A stretch of 64,000 bases of DNA, taken from NCBI GenBank assembly GCA_905181835.1, contig CAJIZF010000001.1, positions 62,001 through 126,000 of the forward strand. Reading direction: 5' to 3'. Each line of letters begins with the position of its first letter. Position 1 is the stretch's first letter. The notes under the pieces are model-generated. The model was not told where the DNA came from. It made no database searches and worked only from the letters and a program-made list of their open reading frames with translations. Positions 11,764 through 46,326 of this stretch are shown one piece after another. The translations under genes were made by a program, and so were the position numbers. This DNA is from an uncultured Flavobacteriaceae bacterium. GTDB lineage: Bacteria; Bacteroidota; Bacteroidia; Flavobacteriales; Flavobacteriaceae.

Positions 11764-13435
11764 CAGACAACGGAGGAGCAGAGGCCTCGGATGCATGTTC
11801 TGGAGTTACTTGGACCAACGATAGTACTGGCCTTAGTGATGCTTGTGGAGCTACTGGAACTGAAACCGTAACTTTTACGGCGACCGATGCCTGTGGAAAC
11901 TTTAGCTCAACTACTGCTACTTTTACGACAGAAGATACTACAGCACCTGTAATTGGTTGTCCTGGTGATGTCACTGCAGTGACTGAAGATGGTGATTGTG
12001 GTGCTATTGTAAATTTCCAACCTGCAGTAGCTATTGATAATTGTGGATCGGCCTTTACTTACCAAACAGGTGGTTTAGGAAGTGGATCGGTATTCCCAGT
12101 GGGTGATACCCTTATTGAGTATACTGCACAAGATGATTGTGGAAATTTAGCTACCTGTACCTTTACCGTAACGGTAATCGATGACGATGCACCAGTGGCA
12201 ATTTGTCAAGACTTAACGGTAATCTTAGATGATACTGGTAATGCAACGATCACTGCCGATCAACTTAATTTTGGATCGAATGATAATTGTGGCGTGGAAA
12301 GTTTAGCTATCAATGTGGATACTTTTGACTGTTCGAATGTAGGTGCTAATCAAGTAACCTAACAGTAACGGATATCCATGGCAATACTGCTACTTGTGTT
12401 GCTAGCGTAACCGTGTTAGATAATACGGCTCCAATTGCAGTTTGTCAAGACATTACGCTAGAATTAGGTGATGATGGTACGGTGACTATTGATCCATTAG
12501 CGATGTAGATGGTGGTTCCAGTGATGCTTGTGGTATAGCTTCTTACGAACTTAATATCGGATACTCTTGATTGTAGTAATCTAGGAAATACCGCAGTGAT
12601 TCTTACCGTAACGGATGTTAATGGAAACCAGAGTTCTTGTTCAGCTATAGTTACCTTAGAAGATAATACTCCTCCGGTATTAGTATGTAATGATGTTACG
12701 GTTGAGCTAAATCAAGATGGAGTGGCCTTTATTACCCCTTCATTAGTTGCTGATATTACAGATAATTGTGGAATAGGCGCAGTGACCGTTGATGTGCAAG
12801 AAGTTTCTTGTGCAGATATTGGAACGCCAGTAACGGTTAATGTATTTGCGAATGATGGCAATGGAAACTCAGCAGTTTGTTCGGCTGTTGTAACAGTAGT
12901 TGACTTATTAGCACCAGAAATAGTATGTCCTGATGACCAGGTAGTAAATCTGGGTCCTGATGGCACCTATACCCTAGGAGATTACATCGGCGATGGCAGT
13001 GCAACGGCTACCGATAACTGTACCGATCCTGTTACTATATTTACTCAAGATCCAGTTGCTGGCACTGTACTAGGTTTTGGAACGCAAGTGATTACTTTCA
13101 CTGCCGAGGATCAGTATGGAAACGTTTCTACCTGTAGTTTTGAATTGGATATTCAGGAGATATTAGGTGCAGGTGATGTCGAAGATTTTGCTTCTTTAGT
13201 ATTGTATCCAAACCCTGCCGATAGCAAAGTAAACTTAAGTAACCCAAGACAGATAGACCTAAATAATGTGACAATTTACGATCTTACGGGTCGAATCGTT
13301 CATAAGGTAGACTTAAGAACTATGGGATCTGAAATTACAATTGATATTGCTACCCTTGCCAATGCTATCTATATGGTAGTAATCAGAGGAGATCAACGAA
13401 TTTCTACCAAACAATTAATAGTCAATAACTACTAA
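11741..13435 (+). pseudogene. Frameshifted continuation of the HYR protein, ending in a type IX secretion C-terminal sorting domain
   Basis: HYR-like sequence continues across several frames (ADAFTAWLADNGGAEASDACSG…; LTVTDIHGNTATCVASVTVLDNTAPIAVCQDITLELGDDG…; DVDGGSSDACGIASYELNI…) and ends VLYPNPADSKVNLSNPRQIDLNNVTIYDLTGRIVHKVDL…ISTKQLIVNNY. Confidence 0.85.
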
Positions 13436-13492: not shown

Positions 13493-13553
13493 TTTATTTT
13501 ATTTAAATTGAGGTAATAGTTTAGTAGATTTATAGACTTAAATAAATATAAAT

Positions 13554-16391
13554 ATGTCTGATCAAAAACGCCTATTTCTTGTTGATGCCTTCGCGCTGAT
13601 TTTTAGAGGTTATTATGCCTTTATTAAAAATCCAAGAATCAACTCGAAAGGTGTTGACACCTCTGCCATTATGGGTTTTATGAACTCTCTTTTGGATGTA
13701 ATAAAAAGAGAACGCCCGGATCATTTGGCAGTTTGTTTTGATAAAGGAGGAAGTAAAGCAAGAGTTGAAGCTTATCCGGCTTATAAAGCCAATAGAGACG
13801 AAACTCCAGATGCTATTAAAGTTGCTGTTCCTTATATTTATGATATTCTAAAGGCCATGCATATCCCGATTATGGTAAAGGAAGGCTTTGAAGCTGATGA
13901 TGTCATTGGAACACTCGCTAAAAAGGCAGAAAAAGAAGGTTATAAAACCTTTATGGTAACTCCTGACAAAGATTTTGCGCAATTAGTTTCTGACAACATA
14001 TTTATGTATCGTCCAATGTTTGGAGGTGGTTATGAAACATGGGGAATCCCTGAGGTACAGAAAAAATTTGATATTGAACGTCCAGAGCAGGTTATCGATT
14101 ATTTAGGTATGGTAGGCGATACCGCTGACAATATTCCTGGATTACCGGGTGTTGGAGACAAAACCGCTAAAAAATTTCTTGCTGCTTACGGAAGCATGGA
14201 GGGGCTATTAGAAAACACCCAGGAACTTAAGGGTAAAATGAAAGAAAAAATCGAGGAAAACAAAAGCTTAGGAGTTCTATCTAAACAATTAGCAACTATT
14301 ATGTTGGACGTCCCTGTTGAGTTTCATGAACAAAATTTTGAAATGTCTCAACCAGATATGAAGGCTGTAACAGCTCTTTTTCAAGAGCTGGAGTTTAGAC
14401 GGTTAATCGATAATTTCACTAAAACATTTACTAAAACAGTTTCAACAGTAAATGAGCAAATTACTAAGGAGGTTAAATCTTCAATAAAAAAAAGCGAGCC
14501 ATCTTCGGCGGGTCACGGACAATTTTCTCTTTTTGGAGGTGACGGAGAACCCACGGAAAACACACTTGACACTACTAGAAAAAGTATAGTCAATACCGAG
14601 CATTTTTATCAGACCGTTCAACCAGGTATGGGAACGAAATTATTTATTCAAAATTTATTGAAACAAAAATCGGTATGTTTTGATACTGAAACTACAGGGC
14701 TGAATCCAATTACAGCAGAATTGGTTGGTATCGCGTTTTCTTGGGAAGTAGGAAAAGGATTTTATCTTTCTTTTCCAGAGAATCTTAGCGAGGCACAAGA
14801 TTTAATAGAAATACTTAGACCTTTCTTTGAAGACGAATCGATTCAGAAAATAGGACAGAATTTAAAATACGATATTAAAGTCTTATCAAAATACAATATA
14901 TCTGTTCAAGGAAAATTATTCGACACCATGCTAGCCCATTACCTAATCAATCCAGATATGAGGCATAACATGGAAGTACTAGCCGAAACCTATTTAAATT
15001 ATACACCAATTTCAATAGTTGAACTCATTGGTAAAAAAGGAAAAAATCAACTTTCTATGCGAGATATTTCCTTGGAAAAAATTACTGAATACGCTGTTGA
15101 AGATGCAGATATTACGCTTCAATTAAAAAAACATTTTGAAAAAGAATTAAAGGAAGCAAAAACACAAAAACTATTTGATGAAATTGAAATTCCTTTACTA
15201 CGTGTTTTGGCAGAAATGGAATTAGAGGGAATTAATTTAGATGTCCCCTTTTTAAATGAATTGGCAAAAGATTTAGATAAAGATATCGCTCAACTGGTTT
15301 CAAAAATTTATGAATTAGCAGGCGAGGAGTTTAATATAGCTTCCCCAAAACAATTAGGAATTGTTCTTTTTGAAAAAATGAAATTAGTTGATAAACCAAA
15401 AAAAACTAAAACAGGACAATACTCTACCGCTGAAGATGTTCTCTCTTACCTAGCAAAAGAGCATGAAATTGTAAAATATATTCTTAAGTATCGGGGACTC
15501 GCCAAACTAAAAAGTACTTATATAGATACCTTACCTATGCAAGTAGAACCAACAACAGGAAGAGTACATACCGATTACATGCAGACAGTCGCAGCAACTG
15601 GAAGATTAAGTAGTAATAATCCTAATCTACAAAATATCCCCATTCGAACAGAAAGAGGAAGACAAGTTAGAAAAGCTTTTATTCCAAAAAACAAGGATTA
15701 CGTGTTACTTGCAGCTGATTACTCTCAAATAGAATTAAGGATTATAGCAGCTTTAAGCGAGGAAAACAACATGATTGAAGCCTTCGCTCAGGGAGAAGAT
15801 ATTCACGCATCCACGGCTGCAAGAGTATTTAATGTTGACTTAAACGAAGTAAGTAAAGAACAACGAAGCAATGCTAAAACAGTCAATTTTGGAATTATTT
15901 ACGGAGTGTCGGCATTTGGATTAAGTAATCAAACAGATTTATCTCGTTCAGAAGCCAAAGAGTTAATTGAAACCTATTATACGTCGTATCCAAAACTTAA
16001 AAGTTTTATGAGTAAACAAGTTGATTTTGCTCGTGATAATGGATATGTTCAAACTGTTTTAAATAGGCGTAGGTATTTAAATGCTATCAATGCATCAAAT
16101 GCAATTGTCCGAGGTGCTGCCGAACGGAACGCTATTAACGCCCCCATACAAGGGAGTGCTGCAGATATTATTAAAATTGCAATGATTCATATTCAACAGA
16201 AACTAAATGCAGAAAATTATAAAAGTAAAATGTTACTTCAAGTCCACGATGAATTGGTTTTTGATGTTTTTAAACCTGAATTAGAAAAACTTAAATCACT
16301 CATAAAATTTGAAATGGAAAATGCCTTTAAGCTATCTGTAAACTTAGATGTAGATTTAGGGACAGGCGATAATTGGTTGGAGGCCCATTAA
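13554..16391 (+). CDS. polA: DNA polymerase I
   Basis: 5'-nuclease N-terminus FLVDAFALIFRGYYAF, 3'-5' exonuclease domain FDTETTGLNP, polymerase motifs AADYSQIELRIIAALS and LLQVHDELVFDV. Confidence 0.98.
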   Translation: MSDQKRLFLVDAFALIFRGYYAFIKNPRINSKGVDTSAIMGFMNSLLDVIKRERPDHLAVCFDKGGSKARVEAYPAYKANRDETPDAIKVAVPYIYDILKAMHIPIMVKEGFEADDVIGTLAKKAEKEGYKTFMVTPDKDFAQLVSDNIFMYRPMFGGGYETWGIPEVQKKFDIERPEQVIDYLGMVGDTADNIPGLPGVGDKTAKKFLAAYGSMEGLLENTQELKGKMKEKIEENKSLGVLSKQLATIMLDVPVEFHEQNFEMSQPDMKAVTALFQELEFRRLIDNFTKTFTKTVSTVNEQITKEVKSSIKKSEPSSAGHGQFSLFGGDGEPTENTLDTTRKSIVNTEHFYQTVQPGMGTKLFIQNLLKQKSVCFDTETTGLNPITAELVGIAFSWEVGKGFYLSFPENLSEAQDLIEILRPFFEDESIQKIGQNLKYDIKVLSKYNISVQGKLFDTMLAHYLINPDMRHNMEVLAETYLNYTPISIVELIGKKGKNQLSMRDISLEKITEYAVEDADITLQLKKHFEKELKEAKTQKLFDEIEIPLLRVLAEMELEGINLDVPFLNELAKDLDKDIAQLVSKIYELAGEEFNIASPKQLGIVLFEKMKLVDKPKKTKTGQYSTAEDVLSYLAKEHEIVKYILKYRGLAKLKSTYIDTLPMQVEPTTGRVHTDYMQTVAATGRLSSNNPNLQNIPIRTERGRQVRKAFIPKNKDYVLLAADYSQIELRIIAALSEENNMIEAFAQGEDIHASTAARVFNVDLNEVSKEQRSNAKTVNFGIIYGVSAFGLSNQTDLSRSEAKELIETYYTSYPKLKSFMSKQVDFARDNGYVQTVLNRRRYLNAINASNAIVRGAAERNAINAPIQGSAADIIKIAMIHIQQKLNAENYKSKMLLQVHDELVFDVFKPELEKLKSLIKFEMENAFKLSVNLDVDLGTGDNWLEAH

Positions 16392-16490
16392 AAAATTATT
16401 CACGTTTACGGGTGAAATCAATTAAAGCATTAATTATTATTATTACGGTTGTAAAAATTAGATTTAATTTAATATTTTTAAATAAAAAAA

Positions 16491-17399
16491 TTGACTTTAT
16501 TAAAACCCATATTATACTTTTCGCTCTTTAAGTATCCTTTAACCGAAGAAGAGATATTTATTTTTTCCAAAGCAGAATCAAAAGAGCAAATTAAATTAGA
16601 TTTAATTGAGTTGGTAAACGATGATATAATTTATAAAATTGATGACTTTTACTTAACGGAAAATAATGAAACACTAATTAAAAGAAGGCTTGAAGGAAAT
16701 AAAATGGCTAAAAATATATACCAAAAAGCCTTAACTGTTTCTCGATTAATTTCTAAATTTCCTTATGTAGAGGGTGTGGGGATTTCAGGCTCTTTATCCA
16801 AGGGTTATTATGATGACGATGGAGATATTGATTTTTTTATTATAACCAGCCCAAATCGATTATGGATTGCTAGAACCTTCCTAATTCTCTATAAAAAAAT
16901 ATTTTTATTAAATTCTAGAAAGTATTTCTGTGTTAATTATTTTATCAGCTCCAATGCGCTAGAGATTGAAGAAAAAAATATATTTACCGCAACCGAGTTA
17001 ACAACGTTACTCCCTATGTTCGGTAACGGTAGTTTCCATAAATTTTACGAAAAAAATAAATGGGTAGAAAATTATTTGCCAAATAAAACTGTTACAGAAG
17101 GCTTATCAAAACTAAATTTGGTCAAAAAACCAACGGTCACAAAAATTACTGAATATTTTTTAGATTCGAAAATAGGAGATTGGCTTGACGCTGCTTTTTT
17201 AAGAATAACATACCATAAATGGAAAATTAAATTTAATCATTTAGAAGAAAGGCAATTTAACGTGGCGATGAAGTCCACAAAAAATATATCGAAACATCAT
17301 CCTTTAAATTTTCAACGAAAAGTAATTGATCGCCTAAACAATAGGTACGACGAATTAAGAGAAAAACATAATATTCACATCGCTAAAGAAAATGCTTGA
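16491..17399 (+). CDS. Nucleotidyltransferase (Pol-beta superfamily fold) protein, TTG start
   Basis: GVGISGSLSKGYYDDDGDIDFFIIT (GS...DxD motif). Confidence 0.75.
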   Translation: MTLLKPILYFSLFKYPLTEEEIFIFSKAESKEQIKLDLIELVNDDIIYKIDDFYLTENNETLIKRRLEGNKMAKNIYQKALTVSRLISKFPYVEGVGISGSLSKGYYDDDGDIDFFIITSPNRLWIARTFLILYKKIFLLNSRKYFCVNYFISSNALEIEEKNIFTATELTTLLPMFGNGSFHKFYEKNKWVENYLPNKTVTEGLSKLNLVKKPTVTKITEYFLDSKIGDWLDAAFLRITYHKWKIKFNHLEERQFNVAMKSTKNISKHHPLNFQRKVIDRLNNRYDELREKHNIHIAKENA

Positions 17400-18561
17400 T
17401 ATTCTTTTTTCACATTCCTACTATTATCCGTTGGATCAAAAACAATGGAATAATAAAACTCCTTATCCTCCTTTAGGAACCATATACGCTGCATCATTAT
17501 TAAGGAAGAGTGGTTTTTCAGTCTCCCTTTTTGATACTAACTTAAGAGATAATCCCTTTGAAATTGAAAAAGAAATTCAGGATCAAAAGCCCTCTTTTTT
17601 AGTTATTTATGATGATGGATTTAATTATTTAACAAAAATGTGTCTTACCAATATGCGAGAGGCTGCTTTTGATATGATTGCCATCGGAAAAAAGCACAAC
17701 TGTATCGTCATCGTAAATAGCTCAGACAGTACAGATCACTATAAAAAATATTTGAACAAAGGAGCTGATTATGTCCTATTGGGTGAAGGAGAAATTTCGT
17801 TAAAAGAATTGGTGCTTAAACTAGGAAACAACGAGCAAATCGATTTGTTAAAAGGAATCGTATATAAGAATGATCTTGATTATACGATCAATCCAAAAAG
17901 GGAAGTTTTAAAAGATTTAGATGAACTGCCCATGCCTGCTTGGGATTTAATTGATATTAATGCGTACAAAGATGTATGGGCTAAAAGCGGAAAAAATTTC
18001 ACTTTAAATATTGCAACCACAAGAGGATGCCCCTATAAATGCAATTGGTGTGCGAAACCTATTTATGGTGTTCGTTATAATTCACATTCACCAGAATATA
18101 TTACCAAATTAATCGCTACCCTGAAAGAAAATTACAGCGTTACTAATTTTTGGATGTGTGACGATATTTTTGGGTTAAAACCCAAATGGGTTCAAAATTT
18201 TAATACCGTATTAAAAGAAGCAGAATTAAAAATAGCATACACAATACAAAGTCGAGTTGATTTATTACTGAAAGAAGATACTATAGATGCATTGGCAGAA
18301 AGTGGTTTAAAAGAGGTTTGGGTAGGAGCTGAAAGCGGTTCTCAAAAAATATTGGATGCAATGGATAAAGGCACACAATTAAATCAAATTTATAAAGCGA
18401 CTCAGTTATTAAAATTAAAAAAAATCAAAGTGGCCTTCTTTATTCAATTTGGTTATTTGAACGAAACTAAAGATGATATTTCCAAAACAATTGAAATGAT
18501 TAAAGAACTGCAACCAGATAATATTGGAGTTTCTGTATCCTACCCATTGCCAGGGAACTAA
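17392..18561 (+). CDS. B12-binding-type radical SAM protein (copy A), prematurely terminated
   Basis: YPPLGTIYAASLLRKSGFSVSLFDTN N-terminal Rossmann; TTRGCPYKCNWCAKPIYG (CX3CX2C); ends SVSYPLPGN* where SYPLPGTKFYE is expected. Confidence 0.88.
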   Translation: MLDILFSHSYYYPLDQKQWNNKTPYPPLGTIYAASLLRKSGFSVSLFDTNLRDNPFEIEKEIQDQKPSFLVIYDDGFNYLTKMCLTNMREAAFDMIAIGKKHNCIVIVNSSDSTDHYKKYLNKGADYVLLGEGEISLKELVLKLGNNEQIDLLKGIVYKNDLDYTINPKREVLKDLDELPMPAWDLIDINAYKDVWAKSGKNFTLNIATTRGCPYKCNWCAKPIYGVRYNSHSPEYITKLIATLKENYSVTNFWMCDDIFGLKPKWVQNFNTVLKEAELKIAYTIQSRVDLLLKEDTIDALAESGLKEVWVGAESGSQKILDAMDKGTQLNQIYKATQLLKLKKIKVAFFIQFGYLNETKDDISKTIEMIKELQPDNIGVSVSYPLPGN

Positions 18562-18859
18562 GTTCTATGAAATGGTTAAAGATGATCTAAAATTTAAATC
18601 AAACTGGAAAGATTCTGACGATTTAGCGATGATGTTTCAAGGAACTTTTAATTCAAGATTTTATAAAAAACTACACCGATATGTTCATAAAGAATATAGA
18701 AAAAGTCAGGCGATTTTTAACTTTCATCAACTTCTCAAAAATCCTTTTTCAATTTCAAAAGATAAAGTACGTTCGCTTCTTTTATATTTTTATTATGCTC
18801 CGTCCTCTTTATTTGATAAAATAATATTGGATAAAATGAAACATACCCATGAAAGCTAA
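18562..18859 (+). pseudogene. C-terminal remainder of radical SAM copy A in the +1 shifted frame
   Basis: GTKFYEMVKDDLKFKSNWKDSDDLAMMFQGTFNSRFYKKLHRYVHKEYRKSQ continues the rSAM C-terminus. Confidence 0.8.
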
Positions 18860-19634
18860 TTTTGATCATCACGCAATAAATTACGATGCGTATTTCTCCA
18901 ATTCATTAATTGGAAAAGCGCAACGGGAACGTGTTCACTATTTTTTAAATAAACAACTTGAAAAGAAGAAAAAAAACTTGCGGGTGCTAGAAATTAATTG
19001 CGGTACCGGAATCGATGCCAATTGGTTGGCTAAAAAGGATCATTTTGTTATTGCTTCTGATATTTCCTCTAAAATGGTCGAAATTGCAAAAAAGAAGTAC
19101 GATCAATCAAATTTAATTTTTAAGCAATTGGATATCCAAACTATCCACACAGAAACTTTTAAAGAAAAGTTTGATTTACTTTTTTCTAATTTTGGAGGAT
19201 TAAATTGTTTATCAAAACAAGACCTAAAAGAATTTCTGAATAATTCAAAATCAATTCTAAAATCTCAAGGGATGTTAGCTCTTGTTATTATGCCTAAGCA
19301 TTGTATTTGGGAACAGCTTTATTTTTTTCTTAAAGGGGATTTTAAAAACATGAAAAGAAGAAACACAAATAAAGCCTTAGTAACTAATGTTGATGGCATA
19401 CAAATTCCTACGTGGTATTATAATTATCAAGAACTAGTCAATTTGCTATCTGAGCAATATAAAATAGTATCTTTAAATCCAATTGGAATTGCGATCCCAC
19501 CTTCTTATTTAAATCCTTTTTTTAAAAATAAAAAAATACTTTTTGAGATCCTAAAGTGGAAAGAAAAATTATTAAATCATTGTATGTGGGCAAATTTATC
19601 GGATCATTACTTAATTGTACTTCAAAAAAAATAA
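18849..19634 (+). CDS. Class I SAM-dependent methyltransferase
   Basis: LRVLEINCGTGIDANWLAKKDHFVIASDISSKMVEIAKKKY. Confidence 0.88.
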   Translation: MKANFDHHAINYDAYFSNSLIGKAQRERVHYFLNKQLEKKKKNLRVLEINCGTGIDANWLAKKDHFVIASDISSKMVEIAKKKYDQSNLIFKQLDIQTIHTETFKEKFDLLFSNFGGLNCLSKQDLKEFLNNSKSILKSQGMLALVIMPKHCIWEQLYFFLKGDFKNMKRRNTNKALVTNVDGIQIPTWYYNYQELVNLLSEQYKIVSLNPIGIAIPPSYLNPFFKNKKILFEILKWKEKLLNHCMWANLSDHYLIVLQKK

Positions 19635-19638
19635 TCAA

Positions 19639-21024
19639 ATGAGTATTGTTTTAACACATGGTTATTATCTAAACAAAGATCCAAAGGAGGCAAGTATAAT
19701 GAAGCCATACGCTCCTCTTGGTTTATTGTACCTATCAAGTTATTTAAATCAAGAAAAAATTAAAAATCTCGTATTCGATTCCACCTTTTCAAATCAGGAA
19801 ACTCAATTAGAATTTATAGCCCGGGAAAAACCATTTGTAGTTGCAATTTATACCAATTTAATGACTAAAATAACGGTCATTAAGTTGATTAAATTATTGA
19901 TAGCTGATCCTAAATATGGATTTCCAAAAATAATTTTAGGGGGTCCCGATGTGACCTTTAATATTCAAAATTATTTAGATACCGGAGCTCATTTTTTAAT
20001 TATTGGAGAGGGGGAACAAACCATAGCTGAGTTATACCAGTCTATTCAAGAGAATTCGGATTATAGTTCTATTACTGGAATTGCTTATAAAGAAAATAAT
20101 TCGGTAATAAAAACACCGCCAAGAATAAAAATTAAAGATCTCAGTCAACTTCCTCTTCCCAACAGAGAAGGTATTAATATTCAAAAATATTTAGATACTT
20201 GGAAAACTAATCATGGTAAAAGTTCTATGACTATTAGCACTCAAAGAGGATGCCCTTATACCTGTAAATGGTGTAGCACTGCTGTATACGGACAAAGTTA
20301 CAGAAGAAGACCTGCTAAATTAGTGGTTGAAGAGATGCGTATGCTTCAAAAGCAATACAATCCTGACTCCATCTGGTTTGTTGACGATGTTTTTACGGTC
20401 AGTCATAAATGGATGGAAGAATTTTGTAATGAAGTAACTAAACAAAAGGTTTTGATCCCTTTTGAATGTATCACAAGAGCTGAAAGATTAAATGATAAAG
20501 TTCTTGAACAATTAAAACAAACAGGCTGTTATCGTATTTGGATTGGAGCCGAAAGTGGTTCTCAAAAAATTATAGATGCTATGGATCGTAGGGTAGATGT
20601 TAGTACTGTGAAAAATGCCATTAGAGAAACAAACAAAAAAGGAATTGAGTCAGGAACCTTTATCATGCTTGGATACCCTAACGAGACTGAAGACGATATT
20701 TATAAAACCATTGACTATCTTAAAGAAGCCAATCCAAAATACTTTACCATTACGTTGGCTTACCCAATAAAAGGGACTTCCTTATATTCAGATATTGAAG
20801 ATAAGATAACAAAACAGCCTGCCTGGGAAACCTCAACAGACAGAGATATTGATTTTAAAAGAACATATTCAAGAAAGTATTATGATTATGCTATCAGAAA
20901 AGTAGTGAATGAAGTTAATTATCATAAAGAACTAATAAAGGGTAAAAACAAAAGCTATTATAAGGCTGCCAAATTAAAAATAAAGTCATGGTTAGCTGGT
21001 AGCTTAATGATGGTAAGTAAATAA
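19639..21024 (+). CDS. B12-binding-type radical SAM protein (copy B)
   Basis: YAPLGLLYLSSYLNQEKIKNLVFDSTF; STQRGCPYTCKWCSTAVYG; IWIGAESGSQKIIDAMDRR. Confidence 0.9.
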   Translation: MSIVLTHGYYLNKDPKEASIMKPYAPLGLLYLSSYLNQEKIKNLVFDSTFSNQETQLEFIAREKPFVVAIYTNLMTKITVIKLIKLLIADPKYGFPKIILGGPDVTFNIQNYLDTGAHFLIIGEGEQTIAELYQSIQENSDYSSITGIAYKENNSVIKTPPRIKIKDLSQLPLPNREGINIQKYLDTWKTNHGKSSMTISTQRGCPYTCKWCSTAVYGQSYRRRPAKLVVEEMRMLQKQYNPDSIWFVDDVFTVSHKWMEEFCNEVTKQKVLIPFECITRAERLNDKVLEQLKQTGCYRIWIGAESGSQKIIDAMDRRVDVSTVKNAIRETNKKGIESGTFIMLGYPNETEDDIYKTIDYLKEANPKYFTITLAYPIKGTSLYSDIEDKITKQPAWETSTDRDIDFKRTYSRKYYDYAIRKVVNEVNYHKELIKGKNKSYYKAAKLKIKSWLAGSLMMVSK

Positions 21025-22139
21025 TGAAAAAGACAGTAATTATAATATTAATTTTATTGACTTCGTGTACCAATTCAACCTACAATGATATTGTAGAGGA
21101 GGATTTTTCGCTAACACTTAAATGGAACAAGAGTTACGAGCAAGACACCATAAGTAACGCAATTATTGGTTTGCAATGGTGCCTGTCTTATCTTGGAGCT
21201 ACACTCCCAATTACTGAAAACGGTATTAAAAATCAAAATCCATTTATAATTTTAAAAATAAATAAATTAGGTTTTAATGTCGATGCGTTAGAAAAACTCA
21301 AGCGACTAAATACTGTTATTAAAGCAACTGAAGAATATCAAATTACTTCAGCTATTGATCTGGGTAGGTATGTAAGTCTATTAATAGGTTCTTCTGAACA
21401 TTATTATGAAATAACAGGGGTCCCGTTTTTACTTTCCGATTTATCAACTTCTTATGAACTCAAGAACCTGGGCGGTTATGTTAATAATTCTAGTGTTTCG
21501 TATGAAAATCGAATCATTAGATTTTCTGAACAAGATGGTTTTAACCAGTTGTTTTTATGCTCAGAAATTAGTCCGGAGTCTGAAGAGATTTTAGAGTACG
21601 AAACCCTTGATTTAATGCAAAATGGTCAAGTTAGATTTGGTATTTACAACAAAGATGGTTTTCGAATTTCAAACTCCGATCCTCAACATAGCAATGCGGG
21701 AAAACCTGCTAAATGTATTTGGTGTCACGAATCTGAAATTCAACCATTATTTAATATACAAGATAATTATGATGGGTTTATCCCCTATTTAGACTTTAAA
21801 GATTTACTGATAGATTTTAAAGTAACACATAGAAATTTACAAAATTCTTTAGTAGATGGAGTTGATTTTCAGGAATCTTTACAGCATATACAAACAGAAT
21901 TACTTTACATATCTTTTATGGAGCCATCTGCAATGCGCTTAAGTATAGAATGGAATATTAATATCAATGAAATTGAAAATTTATTAGACGGAATTCCAAC
22001 ACATAATTATGATGAATTCCCTTTTCTCGGGAATCTTTATTTTAGAGAAGAGATTGATCAATTTGCCCCTTTTTCAGGACTACCAGTTTCCAGTAGTGTT
22101 CGGGAAAAATCTGAAATTGAAGTGAATCATTTAAACTAA
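21024..22139 (+). CDS. Lipoprotein with a single c-type heme motif (CIWCH)
   Basis: N-terminal MKKTVIIILILLTSCTN lipobox; SNAGKPAKCIWCHESEIQPLF. Confidence 0.65.
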   Translation: MKKTVIIILILLTSCTNSTYNDIVEEDFSLTLKWNKSYEQDTISNAIIGLQWCLSYLGATLPITENGIKNQNPFIILKINKLGFNVDALEKLKRLNTVIKATEEYQITSAIDLGRYVSLLIGSSEHYYEITGVPFLLSDLSTSYELKNLGGYVNNSSVSYENRIIRFSEQDGFNQLFLCSEISPESEEILEYETLDLMQNGQVRFGIYNKDGFRISNSDPQHSNAGKPAKCIWCHESEIQPLFNIQDNYDGFIPYLDFKDLLIDFKVTHRNLQNSLVDGVDFQESLQHIQTELLYISFMEPSAMRLSIEWNININEIENLLDGIPTHNYDEFPFLGNLYFREEIDQFAPFSGLPVSSSVREKSEIEVNHLN

Positions 22140-23312
22140 ATGTCTAAAAAAAGTAAACATATTAGGCGGCTAAAAACCATTTCATTATTTGGCGTAAGTC
22201 AATTAATATCTGTTCTGTCAATAGTTATACTTTCTTTAATTATTATTAGATTTCACTCGACGGAGTTGTGGGGACAATATGCAGAGGTGCTTATCTGGAC
22301 CAATGTGTTTTTACTTTTTCTATCTTTTGGAAATAATGATTATTTATTAAAATCATTTAGTAAAAAACCTTCAACAATAAATCAAAAATGGTTAAATAAT
22401 TTTATAGCTAGAAGTATTCTATTAGTGCCAAGTATTATACTTATTTATTTTATCCCTTTTTTTAAAGGCATTGAACCACTTATCTTTACTCTAATTATTC
22501 TTCAATTTATAAATCAATCGTTTAAATCCTTAATTGTATATCACAGAAAATTTCAATTAAATATTATTATTGAATTATTGGCTTTAAGTCTTATGTTAAG
22601 TCAGGTTATTCTAAAAATTGAATATTTATCCTTAATTATCATCATCAAAATTATTTGCTTTGTTCATTTTATAAAACTTATTGCGTTTTCTATATTTCTA
22701 TTTAAAGACTTTAAGCAAATAAAATTATTAGTTCAATTTAGTGAATTGAAGAAATCATTACCCTTTTTTATACCTTTAATTATTGGGACTTTTAGATCAA
22801 AAATAGACACTTATTATGGAGCGCATTTTTTTAATCCAATTCAGTTAAGTAAATATCAAGTATTAATAAGTTTTTTAGCTTTAGCTCAAATGTCTAGTGC
22901 TTTTGCAATCACTCCTTATCTTAAAAATTTTTATAGATTAAAAAATGAATCGGTTTCAAAAATTCAAAAACAGTTTTTTATTTATGGTTGGATATATGCC
23001 ATTATAGTGATTTTTGTGACTTTTATCATACTGTCTAAAGTATACCAACTAGCCTATTCTCTAATACAATATAGTTTAGCATTTATATTCATTATACCAT
23101 TATTTTTACATATTCTATTAGTAAGTGAATACTATAAAAAAGAGCAACAATATAGAATTGCTTTATTTACATCTATTATAGTATCTATTCAATTTTTTAT
23201 AGGATATTACTTAATAAAAAATTGGTCTTTAGATGGAGCTCTATTAGTTAAAGCTTTTGGACAATGGTGTATTGTAATTTTATTATGGGTTTGGATTAAA
23301 AGGCGAAAATGA
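22140..23312 (+). CDS. Multi-pass membrane protein, Wzx/MOP-superfamily flippase-like
   Basis: About 12 hydrophobic segments; TISLFGVSQLISVLSIVILSLIIIRFHSTELWGQYAEVLIW resembles polysaccharide-type flippases. Confidence 0.7.
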   Translation: MSKKSKHIRRLKTISLFGVSQLISVLSIVILSLIIIRFHSTELWGQYAEVLIWTNVFLLFLSFGNNDYLLKSFSKKPSTINQKWLNNFIARSILLVPSIILIYFIPFFKGIEPLIFTLIILQFINQSFKSLIVYHRKFQLNIIIELLALSLMLSQVILKIEYLSLIIIIKIICFVHFIKLIAFSIFLFKDFKQIKLLVQFSELKKSLPFFIPLIIGTFRSKIDTYYGAHFFNPIQLSKYQVLISFLALAQMSSAFAITPYLKNFYRLKNESVSKIQKQFFIYGWIYAIIVIFVTFIILSKVYQLAYSLIQYSLAFIFIIPLFLHILLVSEYYKKEQQYRIALFTSIIVSIQFFIGYYLIKNWSLDGALLVKAFGQWCIVILLWVWIKRRK

Positions 23313-23509
23313 AAAATTATATAAAAAATATATTAATTAGTCTTTGGGGTCCATTTAAGCCAAATAAAAATCAATTTTTTTTATTTATTATTGGATTACC
23401 AAGAAGTGATAGTTCATTACTAATGTATATACTTGAATCTAATAATGAATTAATTGGATATGGTAAGTATTTTATTAAATATACCAGTTCAAAAAAACCA
23501 TTAAGTTGA
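23309..23509 (+). pseudogene. N-terminal fragment of a sulfotransferase-like protein
   Basis: FFLFIIGLPRSDSSLLMYILESNNELIGYGKYFIKYTS resembles the 5'-PSB loop (GLPRSGSS/TLL) region; ends after 66 aa. Confidence 0.5.
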
Positions 23510-24261
23510 ATAAAAAGAAAAACATACTCATTGTAGGATATCCGAAAAGTGGCACAAATTGGTTGAGTAGATTAGTGGCCGAAGTATTACAGTCTAATTT
23601 TAACGGTGATTGGGGTTTTGAAACTAAAAATGCCTCAAGGTTAATTTTTGAAAACAATAATTCTGAGTATCAAGTTTTTAAATCTCATCATTTTTTTTCA
23701 GATATTAAAACTGCCAGTATAGAACCTATTTATAAGATTATCTATATCATTCGTGACCCTAGAGATATTGTGATATCTGGGACCTACTTTTTCAATTTTA
23801 ATTCATTACTTATAAAAGTTTTAAATAAATTAAGTTTAGGGTTTATAAAGTCAGATTTATCATTTAGAAAGAAAAAGAAAAAAATGATAAATGCTGTATT
23901 ATATGGTGATTATAAAATTACTCCCTGGTTAGCCTTATCTTGGGAAAAACATGTAACAGCATATATAACAAATGATATATATATCATTAAATACGAAGAT
24001 TTATTAGATAATACAGAAAAGGAAATTCAAAAATTAATAGCATATTTAAATTTAAATATAGCAAATGATCAAATTGAAAAAAGTGTCAAAAAACAATGTT
24101 TCGAAAATAGAAAAAAAGAAGTAGTTACTTTAAAACACAAATATCTAAATAAATTAGTTAGAAAAGGATCTCAGGGATATTGGAAGAATAATTTTACTGA
24201 GAAAGAAAAAAATCTTTTTAAAGAAGAATTAAATAATAAAATCGAATACTATTCTTTTTAA
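23506..24261 (+). CDS. PAPS-dependent sulfotransferase (Sulfotransfer_1-like), TTG start
   Basis: ILIVGYPKSGTNWLSRLVAEVL; YIIRDPRDIVISGTYFF; RKGSQGYWKNNFT. Confidence 0.85.
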   Translation: MNKKKNILIVGYPKSGTNWLSRLVAEVLQSNFNGDWGFETKNASRLIFENNNSEYQVFKSHHFFSDIKTASIEPIYKIIYIIRDPRDIVISGTYFFNFNSLLIKVLNKLSLGFIKSDLSFRKKKKKMINAVLYGDYKITPWLALSWEKHVTAYITNDIYIIKYEDLLDNTEKEIQKLIAYLNLNIANDQIEKSVKKQCFENRKKEVVTLKHKYLNKLVRKGSQGYWKNNFTEKEKNLFKEELNNKIEYYSF

Positions 24262-24276
24262 AGTAAATTACAATTT

Positions 24277-25797
24277 ATGAATAACAAAATTCTCATATTT
24301 AACCCTAAAAGTGCCAATGCTAAACATCGAATTCCAAATTCTATTTTACAAGTGGGAGCTTCTATTTATGGGATTTACGAATTTGTATTTGTTGATGGAA
24401 ATTTAGAAAATGACCCTTGGGAGAAAATTGATTCTTATTTTCAATCAGGAAATTTTAAATATTTTTGTAGTACGGTAATGCCAGGGCCTCAATTAAGACA
24501 AGCCATCCCTTTTACTAAAAAAATAAAGGAAAAATATCCAGATTGTATTACTATTTGGGGTGGATATTTTGCTTCCAACCAATACCAAGTTTCCATCTCG
24601 TCTGGTTTTGTAGATTATGTTATAAATGGACCTGGCGATATTGCTTTTCCTTCATTAATTAGGGTTTTAGAGGATAATAATCATACTGAAATTTCAACTA
24701 TAAAAAACCTGATCTTCAAAAATGAAGAAGGTGAAATCATAAAAACAGCAAAAGAAGAACTGTTAGATCAGGATTCGTTGCCGAAATTACCTTATCAACA
24801 TTTAAATAGTTTTTACAACTTAGAAAACTACTTAAGTAAAACTTTTTTAGGAAGAAATACCTTTAGTTACCATTCTAGTTTAGGCTGTCCTTTCACTTGT
24901 TCTTTTTGTGCCGTAGTTCCTATTTATAAGGGTCGTTGGAAAGCAAAATCTGCAGAATCAGTTTATAAAGATGTAAAATATTTTAAGGATACTTATCGTA
25001 TAGAAGCCATAGAGTTTCATGATAATAATTTCTTTACTTCCAGGAAAAGAGTCATCGAATTTTCTGAATTGATTAAAAACGATGGGATCACTTGGTGGGG
25101 GGAAGGAAGAATTGACACTATAAACAAATACAGTGATGCCGATTTAATTTTAATGAAAGAAGCTGGTTGTAAGATGATTTTTTTGGGAGCTGAAACAGGT
25201 AATGATGAAATCCTAAAACAAATGAATAAAGGAGGAACTCAAACTGGGGAAACCATCAAACAGTTTGTAAAAAGGTTATATCCAATTGGTATCATCCCAG
25301 AACTTTCTTTTGTATTAGGTATGCCTGCTGAAACTCCCGAAAAAGTGATGGCTCAAATAGAATGGGACATTAATTTCATAAAAGAAGTTAAACAAATTAA
25401 CCCTGATGCTGAAATTATTATTTATTTGTACAGTCCCGTAGCTACCGAGGGATCTGAGTTGTATGAACAAATTCAAAAAGCAGGCTTTAGTTTTCCTAAA
25501 AATCTTGAAGATTGGTTAGCTCCAGCTTGGGAAAATTTTGATTTAAGAAAAAATCCACTAACGCCCTGGCTTACTCCAAAAATGGTAGATCGAATTATGA
25601 ATTTTGAAACGGTTTTAAATGGCTATTATCCAACTGCTACCGATTTTAAAATTAAAGGATTTAAGAGGATCTTGTTAAGGGGTGTTTCTAAGATTCGATA
25701 TATAACGGGTTTTTATAAATATCCTTATGAAATAAAAATCATGCATAAAATTTGGAAATATCGTCAACCTGAAACTCAAGGCTTTTACTCTGAATAA
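24277..25797 (+). CDS. B12-binding-type radical SAM protein (copy C)
   Basis: SSLGCPFTCSFCAVVPIYKGRWKAKS; EAGCKMIFLGAETGNDEILKQMNKGG. Confidence 0.9.
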   Translation: MNNKILIFNPKSANAKHRIPNSILQVGASIYGIYEFVFVDGNLENDPWEKIDSYFQSGNFKYFCSTVMPGPQLRQAIPFTKKIKEKYPDCITIWGGYFASNQYQVSISSGFVDYVINGPGDIAFPSLIRVLEDNNHTEISTIKNLIFKNEEGEIIKTAKEELLDQDSLPKLPYQHLNSFYNLENYLSKTFLGRNTFSYHSSLGCPFTCSFCAVVPIYKGRWKAKSAESVYKDVKYFKDTYRIEAIEFHDNNFFTSRKRVIEFSELIKNDGITWWGEGRIDTINKYSDADLILMKEAGCKMIFLGAETGNDEILKQMNKGGTQTGETIKQFVKRLYPIGIIPELSFVLGMPAETPEKVMAQIEWDINFIKEVKQINPDAEIIIYLYSPVATEGSELYEQIQKAGFSFPKNLEDWLAPAWENFDLRKNPLTPWLTPKMVDRIMNFETVLNGYYPTATDFKIKGFKRILLRGVSKIRYITGFYKYPYEIKIMHKIWKYRQPETQGFYSE

Positions 25798-26468
25798 TGT
25801 CAAAGTTAAGAAACATTATAAAACGTATTACACAGCCATTTTTAAAAACCGGTTTAGCTTACTATTATCGAAAACCACGAAAATACAACTATCAGGATAT
25901 TGAAGTTTTGGTGCATCCAGAAGTGTTTCCTCCTCATCTAACCTTAAGCACTAAAATATTACTAGATTATATAGTTGAATTAGATTTAAAAAACAAAGCT
26001 TTTTTGGAGTTGGGTTGTGGTTCTGGAATTATTTCACTTTTGGCTAGTAAAAAAGGAGCCTTTGTTACTGCTACAGATATTAATAATATTGCATTAGATC
26101 ATTTGAAAAAAGCCTCTTTTGAAAATCAACTTAAAGTAGAGATCATTGATTCCGATTTATTTAAAAACTTAAAAAATAAATCCTTCGATTTAATTATAAT
26201 CAATCCGCCATATTATCCTAAAAAAGCAAAAAACATAAAAGAAAAAGCTTGGTTTTGTGGTGAAGATTTCGAATATTTTAAAGGTCTATTTAATCAATTA
26301 CCAAACTTCATAACCAACCACAATCAGGTGAATATGATTCTCTCAGAAGATTGTCAAATCGAAATCATTACTTCGATAGCATCATTAAACAACTTAAAAC
26401 TAACTTCTGTCTATGAAATTTCAAAAATGGGAGAAACCAATAATATTTTTGAGATAAATCTCAAGTAG
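25797..26468 (+). CDS. HemK/PrmC-like SAM methyltransferase
   Basis: FLELGCGSGIISLLASKKGAFVTATDI; DLIIINPPYYPK (NPPY motif). Confidence 0.83.
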   Translation: MSKLRNIIKRITQPFLKTGLAYYYRKPRKYNYQDIEVLVHPEVFPPHLTLSTKILLDYIVELDLKNKAFLELGCGSGIISLLASKKGAFVTATDINNIALDHLKKASFENQLKVEIIDSDLFKNLKNKSFDLIIINPPYYPKKAKNIKEKAWFCGEDFEYFKGLFNQLPNFITNHNQVNMILSEDCQIEIITSIASLNNLKLTSVYEISKMGETNNIFEINLK

Positions 26469-26485
26469 TAGAAAAAAATCTACTA
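26466..26485 (+). terminator. Weak hairpin at the end of the radical SAM cluster
   Basis: TAGTAGA-AAAAAA-TCTACTA starting at the stop codon; no strong U tract. Confidence 0.3.
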
Positions 26486-26593
26486 TTGGTTCATTAAATC
26501 TTTTGCTAATTTTTATCCAATAAGTTAAAGATTGGCTAAATTTTATAAATGTTATGTGAAACATATTATATTTAAAAAATAATTATCCGTTCA

Positions 26594-27820
26594 ATGCGTT
26601 GGTTTTTTTTTATTATAATTTATACTCTGATTGATTTATATGCCTTACAAGCAATCAGAACTCTCACAAAAAATTTCTGGATAACAGGGATTTATTTATT
26701 TGTCTCTTTAGTGGTTATCGTTTCATTATATTTTTTATTGAATTCAAATAGTTCAACTCACTTCTCTCAACCTCCAATAAGCTATTTGTTCGGTATATTT
26801 TTGGCTTTAATGATTTCAAAAATACTAGTGATTATTTTTATGTTAGGAGAGGATATAACACGACTTATATCAGGATTTTATTTTAAAATTTTTACAAATG
26901 AGCAAAATTTTTATATACCATCCAGAAGAAAATTTTTAAGCACACTTGCTTTAGGAGTTGCAGCAATACCTTTTTCTGCTTTATTATATGGTATGATTAA
27001 AGGGAAGTATAATTTTAAAGTATTAAAATATGAATTGGAGTTTGCTGACTTGCCGGAGGCATTTGACGGTTTTACGATGACACAAATAAGTGATATTCAT
27101 AGTGGTAGTTTTGACAATAAAAACAAAATTTCTTATGCTGTAGACTTAATAAACCAACAAGATAGTGATGCTATATTCTTTACTGGAGATTTAGTCAATA
27201 ACGTTGCTGATGAAATGGATGATTGGAAAGAGTTGTTTTCTAATTTAAGTGCGAAAGAAGGTGTTTTTTCTGTTTTAGGAAATCATGATTATGGAGATTA
27301 TGTTCGTTGGAACAGTAAAGAAGAAAAATTAAAAAACTTAGATAAGCTTAAAAAAATTCAGTCTGAAATGGGTTGGAATTTGTTGTTGAATGAGAATTTT
27401 TATATAAAGAGAAAAAATCAAAAAATTGCAATCGTTGGAGTTGAAAACTGGGGTGAAAATGGCTTCAAACAAGCAGGAGATTTAGACGCAGCTTGTAAAA
27501 ACATTAATGATAGTGATTTTAAAGTCTTATTGAGTCATGACCCTTCGCATTGGAAGTCGAGAGTTAAGAATGATGATCGTAATTTTCAATTAACTTTAAG
27601 TGGTCATACTCATGGAATGCAGTTTGGTATCGAAATACCAGGTTGGATAAAATGGAGTCCTGTTAAATATAGGTACGAGAACTGGGCAGGTATTTACGAA
27701 GAAAAAGGAAGATTTATAAATGTAAATCGTGGATTTGGGTTTTTAGGCTATCCGGGTCGGGTAGGAATCTGGCCTGAGATTACTGTGATAAAGCTCAAAA
27801 AAAAGGACTCTAATGCATAA
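26594..27820 (+). CDS. Membrane-anchored metallophosphoesterase
   Basis: MTQISDIHSG, FFTGDLVNN, VLGNHDYGDY, LSHDPSHW, TLSGHTHGMQFG. Confidence 0.93.
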   Translation: MRWFFFIIIYTLIDLYALQAIRTLTKNFWITGIYLFVSLVVIVSLYFLLNSNSSTHFSQPPISYLFGIFLALMISKILVIIFMLGEDITRLISGFYFKIFTNEQNFYIPSRRKFLSTLALGVAAIPFSALLYGMIKGKYNFKVLKYELEFADLPEAFDGFTMTQISDIHSGSFDNKNKISYAVDLINQQDSDAIFFTGDLVNNVADEMDDWKELFSNLSAKEGVFSVLGNHDYGDYVRWNSKEEKLKNLDKLKKIQSEMGWNLLLNENFYIKRKNQKIAIVGVENWGENGFKQAGDLDAACKNINDSDFKVLLSHDPSHWKSRVKNDDRNFQLTLSGHTHGMQFGIEIPGWIKWSPVKYRYENWAGIYEEKGRFINVNRGFGFLGYPGRVGIWPEITVIKLKKKDSNA

Positions 27821-27834
27821 TTCCCTGAAAACAC

Positions 27835-27842
27835 TATATTTG
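27835..27842 (+). promoter_or_regulatory. Probable promoter -7 element (TATATTTG) of the thioredoxin-like gene
   Basis: TAnnTTTG consensus about 32 nt before the ATG at 27874. Confidence 0.45.
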
Positions 27843-27873
27843 CAGAACAGTTTTTTACCAATACTAAGAAATT

Positions 27874-28170
27874 ATGTCAAAATTTGGAGAATTAATTGAA
27901 ACCCAAGTTCCTGTTTTATTTGATTTTTATACAGACTGGGACGAAGCATCAAAAGAAATGCATCCCGTACTAAGAGATGTTGCGGCTGCTTTAGGCGATA
28001 AGGCTAGAGTTATAAAAATTGATGTCGAAAAAAATGAAGAATTATCCAAAGCACTCCGTGTTAAAGGATTACCAACTCTAATGATTTACAAGCAAGGCGA
28101 AATGAAATGGCGCCAAAGCGGAGAACAAGACGCTAATACATTAATTGGTCTTGTTAATGAATATGTTTAG
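27874..28170 (+). CDS. Thioredoxin-fold protein lacking the CxxC active site
   Basis: VPVLFDFYTDWDEASKEMHPVLRDVAAALGDKARVIKIDVEKNEELSKALRVKGLPTLMIYKQGE. Confidence 0.88.
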   Translation: MSKFGELIETQVPVLFDFYTDWDEASKEMHPVLRDVAAALGDKARVIKIDVEKNEELSKALRVKGLPTLMIYKQGEMKWRQSGEQDANTLIGLVNEYV

Positions 28171-28235
28171 ATAAACTTTCTAGAATAATACATTATAATC
28201 CATTTTTGACACCGCGGTGTTAATAAAAGTTATTA

Positions 28236-31200
28236 TTAATCTAAAGAATCTAGCAAATCGTCATTAAAAATTTCTTCCTCCACTTCCAATAAGTCATTTT
28301 GGTTATCTGAAAAATTGAATTTTTGAAGATACTCATTAAATTTTTCAGCTTCAACAACGGTATACTCTTGATTGTCAAAAGAAGCCAAGACATCTAACAG
28401 CCCTCTGTAGCGCCCTAAATCACTAAATATTTCATCTCCAATAGCCTCTTGTTTATTGTAGCTTAGTTTACTGTAGAAGAATAGATGTTCTTGATAATGT
28501 CTAACAACAGATTGGTATACTGCTCGTGCTTTTTCAACTTTATTTATTTGATAGTAATAGAGGATAAAAGGCTCTAGCAGGGAATAAAACTCAAAATAAT
28601 CTACAGGCATTTTTTCCATAGCTAAATCTAGTACGTTTTCTGCTTTATCATATTGACCTTCTTCAATCAACACATTTGCTAATCTTGAGAGCGTGCTTCT
28701 GTAAGTTATTCCATTTCTTCTTGTTTCCACATCATGATAAATAGCTGAATCACCACTATTTCCCCATTTCCAATTCATAACGATGCTGTACATTTTTTCT
28801 CCATCTATTCGTCCCATTTCATAGGGATTATTTTTATCTAAAGGAGTTCGAATAGGCACTAGTTTATATAGAACGCCTTCTAATTGTAAAAATTCTTTCA
28901 TCCAAATATAATCGTCGTCTCCAAAAGCACCTCCACTAAAATAGATAGGACGCTCCCAATTATTATTTGCAATTACATCTAACATTAAGAGTCTATTTTT
29001 ATAAATAACATCTCCTTTTAAAGTTATATATATGTTGGGAACTATTTTATCAGCATCTTTAGGATCAACAATTCCGTTTTGCAAAACAGCTTCTTTATCT
29101 ACAGGAATTTTAATCACTTTCGTTGGGAAAGTGTTAACCCACTGTCTGCTTTCCAATTCTACTTGTGTTTTTTTACTGTCATTAGCAACAAAATCCATCC
29201 AATCTTTAATATTAATAGTATCTTTTCTTGTTTTTTGAAAAAACAGAAAGTCTCTCGAGCCATACTTGTATTTATCATGGCTAAGTTGAGAGGGTATCGG
29301 ATCGCTATCAAAAGCTTTCTTTTTCATATCGTCAATGTACCAATCGGTCTGAAAAAGACTGGTATTAACAATTCGAACATCTTGCCGGTATTTCTCAATT
29401 CCTTGGGCATACCATAATGCAAAGGTGTCATTATCACCGATGGTAAATATAATTGCATTTTCATCACAGGAATCTAAATACATTTTTGCCATAGATTGTG
29501 CAGTGTATCTATTAGACCGATCGTGATCGTCCCAGTTTTGTGACCCCATTAAAACAGGAACTGCCAATGCAGTTGAAGCTAAAACAATTGGAACCGCTAA
29601 TTTTGGTTTTATTTTTTCTTTGACTATTTCAAACAAAGCATATACTCCAAAACCAATCCACATTGCAAAAACATAAAAAGATCCAACCAAAGCATAGTCT
29701 CGTTCTCTTGGTTCGAAAGGTCTTTCATTTAAATAAATTTTTAAAGCTATACCAGTAAAAAGAAAGAATATTAAAAGTACCCAAAAGTTTTTAGGATCAT
29801 TTTTATAATGAAATAAAATTCCAATAATTCCTAGTAAAAGAGGTAACATAAAATAGGTATTTCTAGCTTTATTATGTTTCGAATCACTTGCTATAAATTC
29901 TTGAGGGCCTAACCTTGCATCATCAATAAAATTTATTCCGGTAAGCCAATTTCCGTGTAAATCAGTGTATTCCCCTTGTTTATCGTCTTGTCTTCCACTA
30001 AAATTCCACATAAAATATCTCCAATACATGTATCCAAATTGATATTCAAACATATAGGCAATATTTTGTAGGAATGTAGGTTTTTGGATATCTAAAAAAG
30101 GCCCAAAATCTTTTAAAAAATCATCTAAATCCTCAACACCAACATTACCAGACCTGATGTCCTGATTAAAATCTTTTACAATATCGATTAATCTGGATTC
30201 TCCCAGGTATTCTCTCTTTATAGTAAATTCAAGGCCATCGGTAAATTGCATATAATTAGTAGCATGTTCCATACTCCACATTCTTGGAAACAAACCTTTT
30301 TGAGCATCGTCGGTATTTTGTGAAGCATTTACAAAATCATTAACGATTATATACTTGCCATTTTCTTCATCTTTTTCAAATTTAGGTTTATCATCTTTGT
30401 AAGGTTTTTTTGGATCTAAGCCTACATATTTTTCTGTAAATAGGGGGCCATAAAAAAGATGTGTTTCAGGGTATTGCTCTCTGTTGTAATAGGCTAATAA
30501 TTCTCTTGCATTATTTGGATTGTTCTCGTTAATCATAGTTCCAGCATTGGCTCGAACGGGGAGCATTATCCAGCTAGAAAACCCAATAAATATAAAAAGT
30601 ATAGCTAATAGTAAGGTGTTAAGTTTTACATATTCTTTTTCTCTTGTAAACCTTAATAAATAATAAAACAAACCTGTGAAAAGGAAACCTGCTATAATAG
30701 TTCCTGAATTGAAAGGAAGTCCAATACTATTTACAAAAAATATTTCTGATGCACTAAAAAATTTAAGCGTCATGGGGAGTAGTAACTTAAATATAAATAG
30801 TAAAATAGCTACCATAACAATATTGGCGATTAGGAAATTTTTTAGGGTTACCGATTTATAATTTTTAAAGAAATATAGCATTCCCATAGCTGGAATTGTA
30901 AGAAGTCCCATAAAGTGAACCCCAAAAGATAGACCAATTACGAAAGCGATTAAAATGACCCATCTATCTCCTCTTGGCGTATTCATATCTCTTTCCCATC
31001 GCAAAGCCAAATAAAATAAAACAGACATAATAAAGGTTGCCATAGCATATACCTCTGCTTCTACAGCATTGAACCAAAAGCTATCTGAAAATGCAAATGC
31101 CAGAGACCCTATTGCTGCACTGCCCAAAATTGCATGATAATTTTGTTTTTTTAACTCAATTTTTTTAGAAACAATAGTAGTTAATAACATGGTTAGTGAC

Positions 31201-42200: not shown

Positions 42201-42322
42201 ACCATGAAAGTGAAATAAATAAGTTAAGTAAAGATAAAAGAATGTATCACTTGCTAGAAGCAGTAGGAACAAAACCTAATGTGCTTTATCAAGCTAAAGT
42301 GAGAAATTCAAAAGAAGTTTAA
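39257..42322 (+). CDS. actB: Alternative complex III subunit ActB (molybdopterin oxidoreductase-like plus Fe-S domains)
   Basis: TSRRDFLKYVGFSTAAASLAACEGP signal; CTGCGACVIACHAENNVPVVG; CQHCNHAPCETVCPV; CANNCPYKVRRFNW. Confidence 0.93.
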   Translation: MSLNKKYWKSVEELDENSSIVKALQQNEFVEEIPVDKFLGDKETLETSSTSRRDFLKYVGFSTAAASLAACEGPIKKSIPYVVLPDEIIPGIANYYATTIADGFDFANILVKTREGRPIKIERNRLEQSFGSVNARVHASVLSLYDVNRLQTPLISNEPATWEAFDSALENKLNALKEEKIVLLTQTFASPSTSKLIKKFTSKYPNVSHVIYDTVSSSEALDAFQSKYGIRALADFDFSKAEVIVSVGADFLGDWQGGGFDSSYAKGRIPSEGKMSQHFQFEANMSLTGANSDIRIPTTPSQQKQVVKALTGGSTSGLPESVVAAISSAKAALQKAGDKGVIITGLPDVSAQSSILSYNESVSSVVMSTEKPKLIRKGNSREVTNVINDVINGDVKGLISVGVDPVYSFPNNLAFTEAYTRLALTASFSFKKDATASLSQLVAATPHYLESWGDTQLKKGTFGLMQPTIKPLFDTRQFQDSLLKLLGVEKSYYDFIKETWKESILESASWNNALHDGVFLSDVEIDNDEITSGTEFISSNKSIDTILQEGGLELTLYTKISMGDGQQANNPWLQEMPDPITRASWDNYLTVSAADASEMGLENKNVADGGLNGSYVNVSVGDVTIENIPVIIQPGQAKGSVGLALGYGKTASIQFEMQTGVNAYHLYNNFSSIQNVTVEKVAGEHEFACVQLHNTMMGRDIIRETSLEVFNTKDANTWNPVPVVSKDHKEISVNDPGADLWTSFDRTIGHHFNLSIDLNACTGCGACVIACHAENNVPVVGKKEVRKSRDMHWLRIDRYYSSEDTFESDLNKKEKANGLFGETGVKSTLISMEDASASPEVAFQPVMCQHCNHAPCETVCPVAATSHGRQGQNQMAYNRCVGTRYCANNCPYKVRRFNWFLYSENEEFDYHMNNDLGRMVLNPDVVVRSRGVMEKCSMCIQMTQKTILDAKNEGRAIKDGEFKTACSAACESGAMVFGDVNDHESEINKLSKDKRMYHLLEAVGTKPNVLYQAKVRNSKEV

Positions 42323-42348
42323 TAATACTAAGAAATAGCAAAAAAGAT

Positions 42349-43794: not shown

Positions 43795-43796
43795 TT

Positions 43797-44330: not shown

Positions 44331-44331
44331 T

Positions 44332-44955: not shown

Positions 44956-44983
44956 TAAAAAGAATAAAGAGAATAGCTAAGAT

Positions 44984-46303: not shown

Positions 46304-46326
46304 TTTAATTTGTTGATAAGATAACG

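Follow-up and report, generated by a model that had tools for sequence, protein, structure and literature searches.

What does a run of genes produce in which three B12-type radical S-adenosylmethionine (SAM) proteins stand beside a lipoprotein, a flippase and sulfotransferases, and is the same run found in other bacteria? This question was raised by positions 16491-26468 of a 64,000-nucleotide stretch of DNA, referred to here as the window, from an uncultured Flavobacteriaceae bacterium (assembly GCA_905181835.1, contig CAJIZF010000001.1, positions 62,001 to 126,000 of the forward strand). The locus encodes a nucleotidyltransferase-fold protein (NT), the radical SAM proteins rSAM A, B and C, two methyltransferases (MT1 and MT2), a lipoprotein with a CxxCH motif, a Wzx-like flippase and a sulfotransferase that uses 3'-phosphoadenosine-5'-phosphosulfate (PAPS). 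In our view the window probably carries an allele of a locus found in Bacteroidota, by which a lipid-linked glycoconjugate of the cell surface is made and exported. A conserved core (with rSAM B, MT2 and the lipoprotein in one branch) surrounds a cassette that is entirely different from one close relative to the next, and on the best reading the conserved chemistry of the locus is carried out by B12-type radical SAM enzymes.

The strongest evidence for a system is the recurrence of its genes across the phylum. A search with the lipoprotein recovered 70 loci in named Bacteroidota, from Flavobacteriaceae, Crocinitomix, Nubsella, Chitinophaga, Aureispira and Saprospiraceae. Most of these contained NT, rSAM A, MT1, rSAM B, the lipoprotein, a glycosyltransferase (GT) of family GT87, often one of family GT2, a flippase or ABC exporter, rSAM C and MT2. 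NT and rSAM A were adjacent on the same strand in all 53 loci containing both, MT1 was likewise next to rSAM B in 54 of 54 loci and rSAM C next to MT2 in 46 of 49, the gaps within these pairs being mostly below 20 bp; MT1 adjoined rSAM A in 52 of 55. Crocinitomix, Nubsella, Aureispira and Saprospiraceae had a shuffled gene order. Among 396 genomes sampled independently across the phylum, without selection by the lipoprotein, rSAM C was present in 17, and core homologs lay around it in all of the 16 others. Presence was nested, with rSAM C (17 genomes) falling within rSAM A (27) and rSAM A within NT (29), and the co-occurrence of NT with rSAM A gave a Fisher p-value of 8e-40, a type of value that is inflated by kinship among the genomes. 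Carriers were spread patchily over about ten families. Co-conservation of the full set in unrelated Bacteroidota, which the preliminary description had named as the observation that would support a system, was thus borne out by the 70 loci, the rSAM C genomes and the nesting.

The lipoprotein itself occurred in 2/396 genomes across the phylum and in 7/251 within the family. From these counts and the nesting of the other genes, we take the core to be NT, rSAM A, MT1 and rSAM C; rSAM B and the lipoprotein form an added module. The core genes also co-diverge, and the flippase does not: pairwise distances of core proteins correlated at 0.66-0.94, those of the commonest flippase family at 0.26-0.39 with the core and 0.42 with GT87. 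One genome (G545) showed the locus split within the NT gene between contig 54 (L137) and contig 49. One contig carried the polA-side half with rSAM C and the other carried rSAM A together with a second rSAM homolog and the lipoprotein, a split that represents either a rearrangement or an assembly break.

The second line of evidence comes from the centre of the locus. Comparison with the closest relative (G018) gave 98.9% identity over positions 13,499-22,165 and 96.6% over 24,277-29,507 with no alignment between them. This unalignable interval, the exchangeable cassette (22166-24276, strand not assigned), coincides with the lowest-GC stretch of the locus, and the AT-rich dip reported earlier is indeed present, with a GC content of 0.25 at 22-24 kb compared to about 0.33-0.36 in the flanks. 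Its flippase (22140-23312, forward strand, 390 aa) was recognized by its hydrophobic segments; the window copy had no Pfam match, and 6 of 37 flippases from the clusters matched Polysacc_synt (PF01943). The PAPS-type sulfotransferase (23506-24261, forward strand, 251 aa) scored 104.2 bits against Sulfotransfer_1 (cut-off 22) and carries PKSGTNW and RKGSQGYWKN motifs. Cassettes in other loci encode GT2, GT4, GT9 and GT-C glycosyltransferases, sulfotransferases, NKWYS capsule proteins, SPASM radical SAM proteins, FkbM and other methyltransferases, Wzx or ABC exporters, as well as carbamoyl- and acyltransferases. GT87 was found in 45 of 69 loci and a GT87b form in 11 more. Glycosyltransferases are thus present in most relatives, albeit not in the window, and it is on this basis that we place the locus among those for surface glycoconjugates. 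Two fusions further tie core genes to sugar transfer, one of NT to a GT4 glycosyltransferase (L146) and one of MT1 to a GT29-like domain whose match is below the Pfam cut-off (L152). Several distant versions of the locus (L140, L144, L145, L146 and L152) also encode an amidohydrolase-like protein of about 390 aa.

The open reading frames (ORFs) of the ten genes of the window locus are all on the forward strand, and their start and stop codons mostly overlap at the positions given in the preliminary description; promoter and terminator scans of the locus gave no signal above chance level. The earlier family assignments held for NT, three Radical_SAM proteins, two methyltransferases and the PAPS sulfotransferase, while B12-binding exceeded its Pfam cut-off only in rSAM B. 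All three radical SAM proteins were above the Radical_SAM cut-off, and each appears to have an N-terminal domain of the cobalamin-binding type. rSAM B (19639-21024, forward strand) reached 77.7 bits for Radical_SAM and 38.8 bits for B12-binding, and its start is probably the ATG at 19639, as this Met is invariant in 12 orthologs. rSAM C (24277-25797, forward strand, 506 aa) scored 59 bits for Radical_SAM; its B12-binding score of 22.7 bits and that of rSAM A (17392-18859, forward strand), 28.8 bits, were under the cut-off of 32.1. Among orthologs, B12-binding was matched at E<=0.001 in 11/11 rSAM A and 6/8 rSAM C sequences. The CxxxCxxC motif was present in every sequence inspected (53/53 for rSAM A, 56/56 for rSAM B and 54/54 for rSAM C), and rSAM C was the most conserved of the three, with a mean pairwise identity of 70% across loci. 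A plasmid tblastn search with rSAM C returned only distant radical SAM proteins, with at most about 26% identity among the matches listed.

The remaining conserved enzymes could be assigned to classes. NT (16491-17399, forward strand, 302 aa) matched Pfam NTP_transf_2 with 21.9 bits (cut-off 21), its GS and DxD residues were invariant in 33 orthologs, and its AlphaFold2 (AF2) model (predicted local distance difference test score, pLDDT, of 93) resembled ANT (aminoglycoside) and MNT nucleotidyltransferases most closely, at a probability of about 0.98 but an E-value of about 0.02. MT1 (18849-19634, forward strand, 261 aa) is a class I SAM methyltransferase (Methyltransf_25, E 4.8e-16), and MT2 (25797-26468, forward strand, 223 aa) is a HemK-like NPPY methyltransferase of the NCBIfam PRK14968 type (E 1.5e-30, under the curated cut-off). 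Adenosine 5'-phosphosulfate kinase and cobalamin adenosyltransferase are encoded in the window's genome, which makes precursor supply plausible.

The lipoprotein (21024-22139, forward strand, 371 aa) carries the motif KCxWCH. As the motif seeded the search, its invariance across the 70 loci is to some extent circular; it was also present in orthologs reached by a whole-protein profile or via rSAM B, where the motif was not the seed. The CxxCH lipoprotein proposed earlier is real. The protein had no Pfam or NCBIfam match. Its confident AF2 model, built with 56 orthologs, reached a pLDDT of 91.9, and Foldseek found nothing in the PDB at E<=0.001; PDB sequence searches with the lipoprotein and NT profiles likewise gave nothing usable. 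A role as heme-c carrier is putative and is suggested by the CxxCH motif.

How might these parts work together? In the pathway we propose, the core enzymes would combine nucleotidyl transfer, radical chemistry and methylation to make a shared moiety, either an anchor lipid or a common sugar or head group. GT2 and GT87 enzymes would then attach sugars, with periplasmic polyprenyl-phosphate donors as their probable source, and a Wzx-type flippase or ABC exporter would move the lipid-linked intermediate. The outer part would be made strain-specific by sulfo-, carbamoyl-, acyl- or methyltransferases, and the lipoprotein may serve as a heme-c/redox or acceptor factor, either periplasmic or at the outer membrane. 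A bolder version, which we regard as possible but rather doubtful, holds that the core, together with rSAM B and the CxWCH lipoprotein of unmatched fold, uses cobalamin-type radical chemistry to make a new class of bacterial surface anchor or head group, on which strain-specific glycans are built. Besides the kinship among genomes and the sub-threshold scores already given for the GT29-like domain and for B12-binding in rSAM A and C, several observations weigh against the surface glycoconjugate reading: the core enzymes could be linked to enzyme classes only and to no known chemistry, the place given to the lipoprotein in the pathway is speculative, and the window locus lacks a sugar-phosphate transferase for initiation, a nucleotide-sugar pathway and a clear polymerase.

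Described systems share some of these features. The Bacteroidota O-glycosylation locus (LFG), which starts with metG followed by wzx and ends with two conserved glycosyltransferases (PMC12871550), likewise combines kept ends and a variable centre with a Wzx flippase, glycosyltransferases and methylated products. In contrast, the present locus begins next to polA in many Flavobacteriaceae, with NT/rSAM A at one conserved end and rSAM C/MT2 at the other; the window copy, which runs from polA to rSAM C/MT2, has neither the metG-wzx end nor the two conserved glycosyltransferases of LFG. The O-polysaccharide locus of Flavobacterium psychrophilum contains nucleotide-sugar genes and a Wzy polymerase, with no radical SAM protein mentioned (PMC6519341). 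It resembles the present locus in its allelic variation between close strains and its flippase, as well as in the glycosyltransferases found in relatives of the window copy, but the present locus is without nucleotide-sugar genes and without a clear Wzy. With regard to the definition of Wzx/Wzy O-antigen clusters, nucleotide-sugar genes, glycosyltransferases and wzy were all missing from the window cluster, while the relatives have glycosyltransferases and at most a weak EpsG-like match. At the level of single enzymes, rSAM A, B and C share domain order, the CxxxCxxC motif and profile similarity with BchE, HpnJ, PhpK and AprD4. All three remained below the NCBIfam curated cut-offs for BchE, HpnJ, PhpK, HpnR and TIGR04295, and because the scores were far under these cut-offs, none of them belongs to the named B12-type radical SAM families. 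The locus corresponds to neither the O-glycosylation nor the O-polysaccharide locus described; as far as can be judged from sequence, it functions like such a locus but with a different conserved core.

Since B12-type radical SAM enzymes are common in specialized-metabolite clusters, the three proteins could instead build a soluble glycosylated natural product that is exported by the flippase or ABC protein. The patchy distribution and the named PDB proteins nearest to the radical SAM proteins, which include the natural-product enzymes AprD4, OxsB, TokK and CysS, are in line with this explanation. We nevertheless consider it unlikely, as cell-surface loci typically show an exchanged middle within kept flanks, GT87/GT2 pairs, Wzx-like proteins, NKWYS and GT9, and neither nonribosomal peptide synthetases nor polyketide synthases were among the 25 families listed in the census of cassette proteins. 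A classical capsule, O-antigen or lipooligosaccharide outer-core locus, in which the radical SAM proteins modify sugars of the repeat unit, would account for a variable cassette with flippase and sugar modifiers and for the heptosyltransferase-like GT9 in several distant loci. This appears somewhat less probable still, since nucleotide-sugar synthesis genes are missing from the window, the only polymerase candidate is a weak EpsG-like match in some relatives, and the radical SAM proteins rank with the best-conserved parts of a locus in which most genes for glycans and transport differ, so that these proteins probably act on a shared moiety. The frameshift, truncated sulfotransferase and AT-rich centre of the window copy (see below) could also be taken as signs that unrelated genes lie together by chance or that the region is a decayed island. 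With the same genes co-occurring and co-diverging across the phylum, we consider this explanation highly improbable, and decay, if real, would be limited to the window allele. A cluster for ribosomally synthesized and post-translationally modified peptides (RiPPs) was rejected, because the genes of the window abut too closely to accommodate a precursor and none of the RiPP families scored above its cut-off.

While the surface glycoconjugate reading concerns the locus as a family, the window copy is a shortened and reduced allele, with a frameshifted rSAM A, a truncated sulfotransferase and no glycosyltransferase. One extra base near 18552 splits rSAM A into an ORF of 389 aa (17392-18561) and another of 111 aa (18524-18859) in a different frame; at the frameshift site (18545-18560, forward strand) the window reads GCCAGGGAAC and the closest relative GCCGGGAAC. 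In most relatives, including a 99%-identical one, rSAM A is a single ORF of about 480-500 aa. The frameshift may be biology or an assembly error; single-base indels were also observed in a window gene at about 12.36 kb and in rSAM C of G018. That window gene belongs to positions 7555-13435 upstream of polA, where a reprolysin/HYR/laminin-G protein is followed by more HYR-type ORFs in other frames. Relative to contig 15 of G018, it has single-base indels near 12,358 and 12,559 and may itself be frameshifted or misassembled. The 66-aa piece at 23309-23509 (forward strand), counted as a separate sulfotransferase fragment in the preliminary description, is 62-71% identical to the N-terminus of full-length sulfotransferases in G018 and G014, and is the truncated 5' part of a 252-aa enzyme that is whole in both. 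GT2 and GT87 genes, which stand between lipoprotein and flippase in most relatives, are not in the window copy; elsewhere in the window's genome a search found no match to GT87 and only a weak match (32%) to GT2. Considering the frameshift, the truncation and the missing glycosyltransferases together, the locus may be inactive in the window organism.

These findings alter the earlier picture of an undescribed cluster making and exporting a modified surface metabolite. The ten genes are real, but they are not ten intact ones, given the split rSAM A and the sulfotransferase stump. The co-conservation agrees with the proposed cluster, of which the window holds a reduced copy. The sulfotransferase is genuine; as sulfotransferases belong to the cassette and not to the core, a sulfated product would be expected of some alleles only. 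No description of the gene set was found in the literature searched, in which few subscription journals were covered, and the set is apparently undescribed across marine and soil Bacteroidota. Surface glycoconjugate loci with exchangeable cassettes typically govern recognition by phages, predators and hosts. Since the conserved part here is radical SAM and not sugar-nucleotide chemistry, an unusual shared surface moiety is predicted for many marine and soil Bacteroidota, and with several carriers being cultured type strains this prediction is directly testable. Flavobacterium soli DSM 19725 (L065) is a cultured carrier whose locus is intact.

Two other regions of the window were noted. Positions 39257-49219 contain a run of ferredoxin-domain, NrfD-like, COX2 and COX1 genes resembling an operon for alternative complex III and cytochrome oxidase, and positions 54265-61524 encode SprA (gliding motility/type IX secretion) with a length of 2419 aa.

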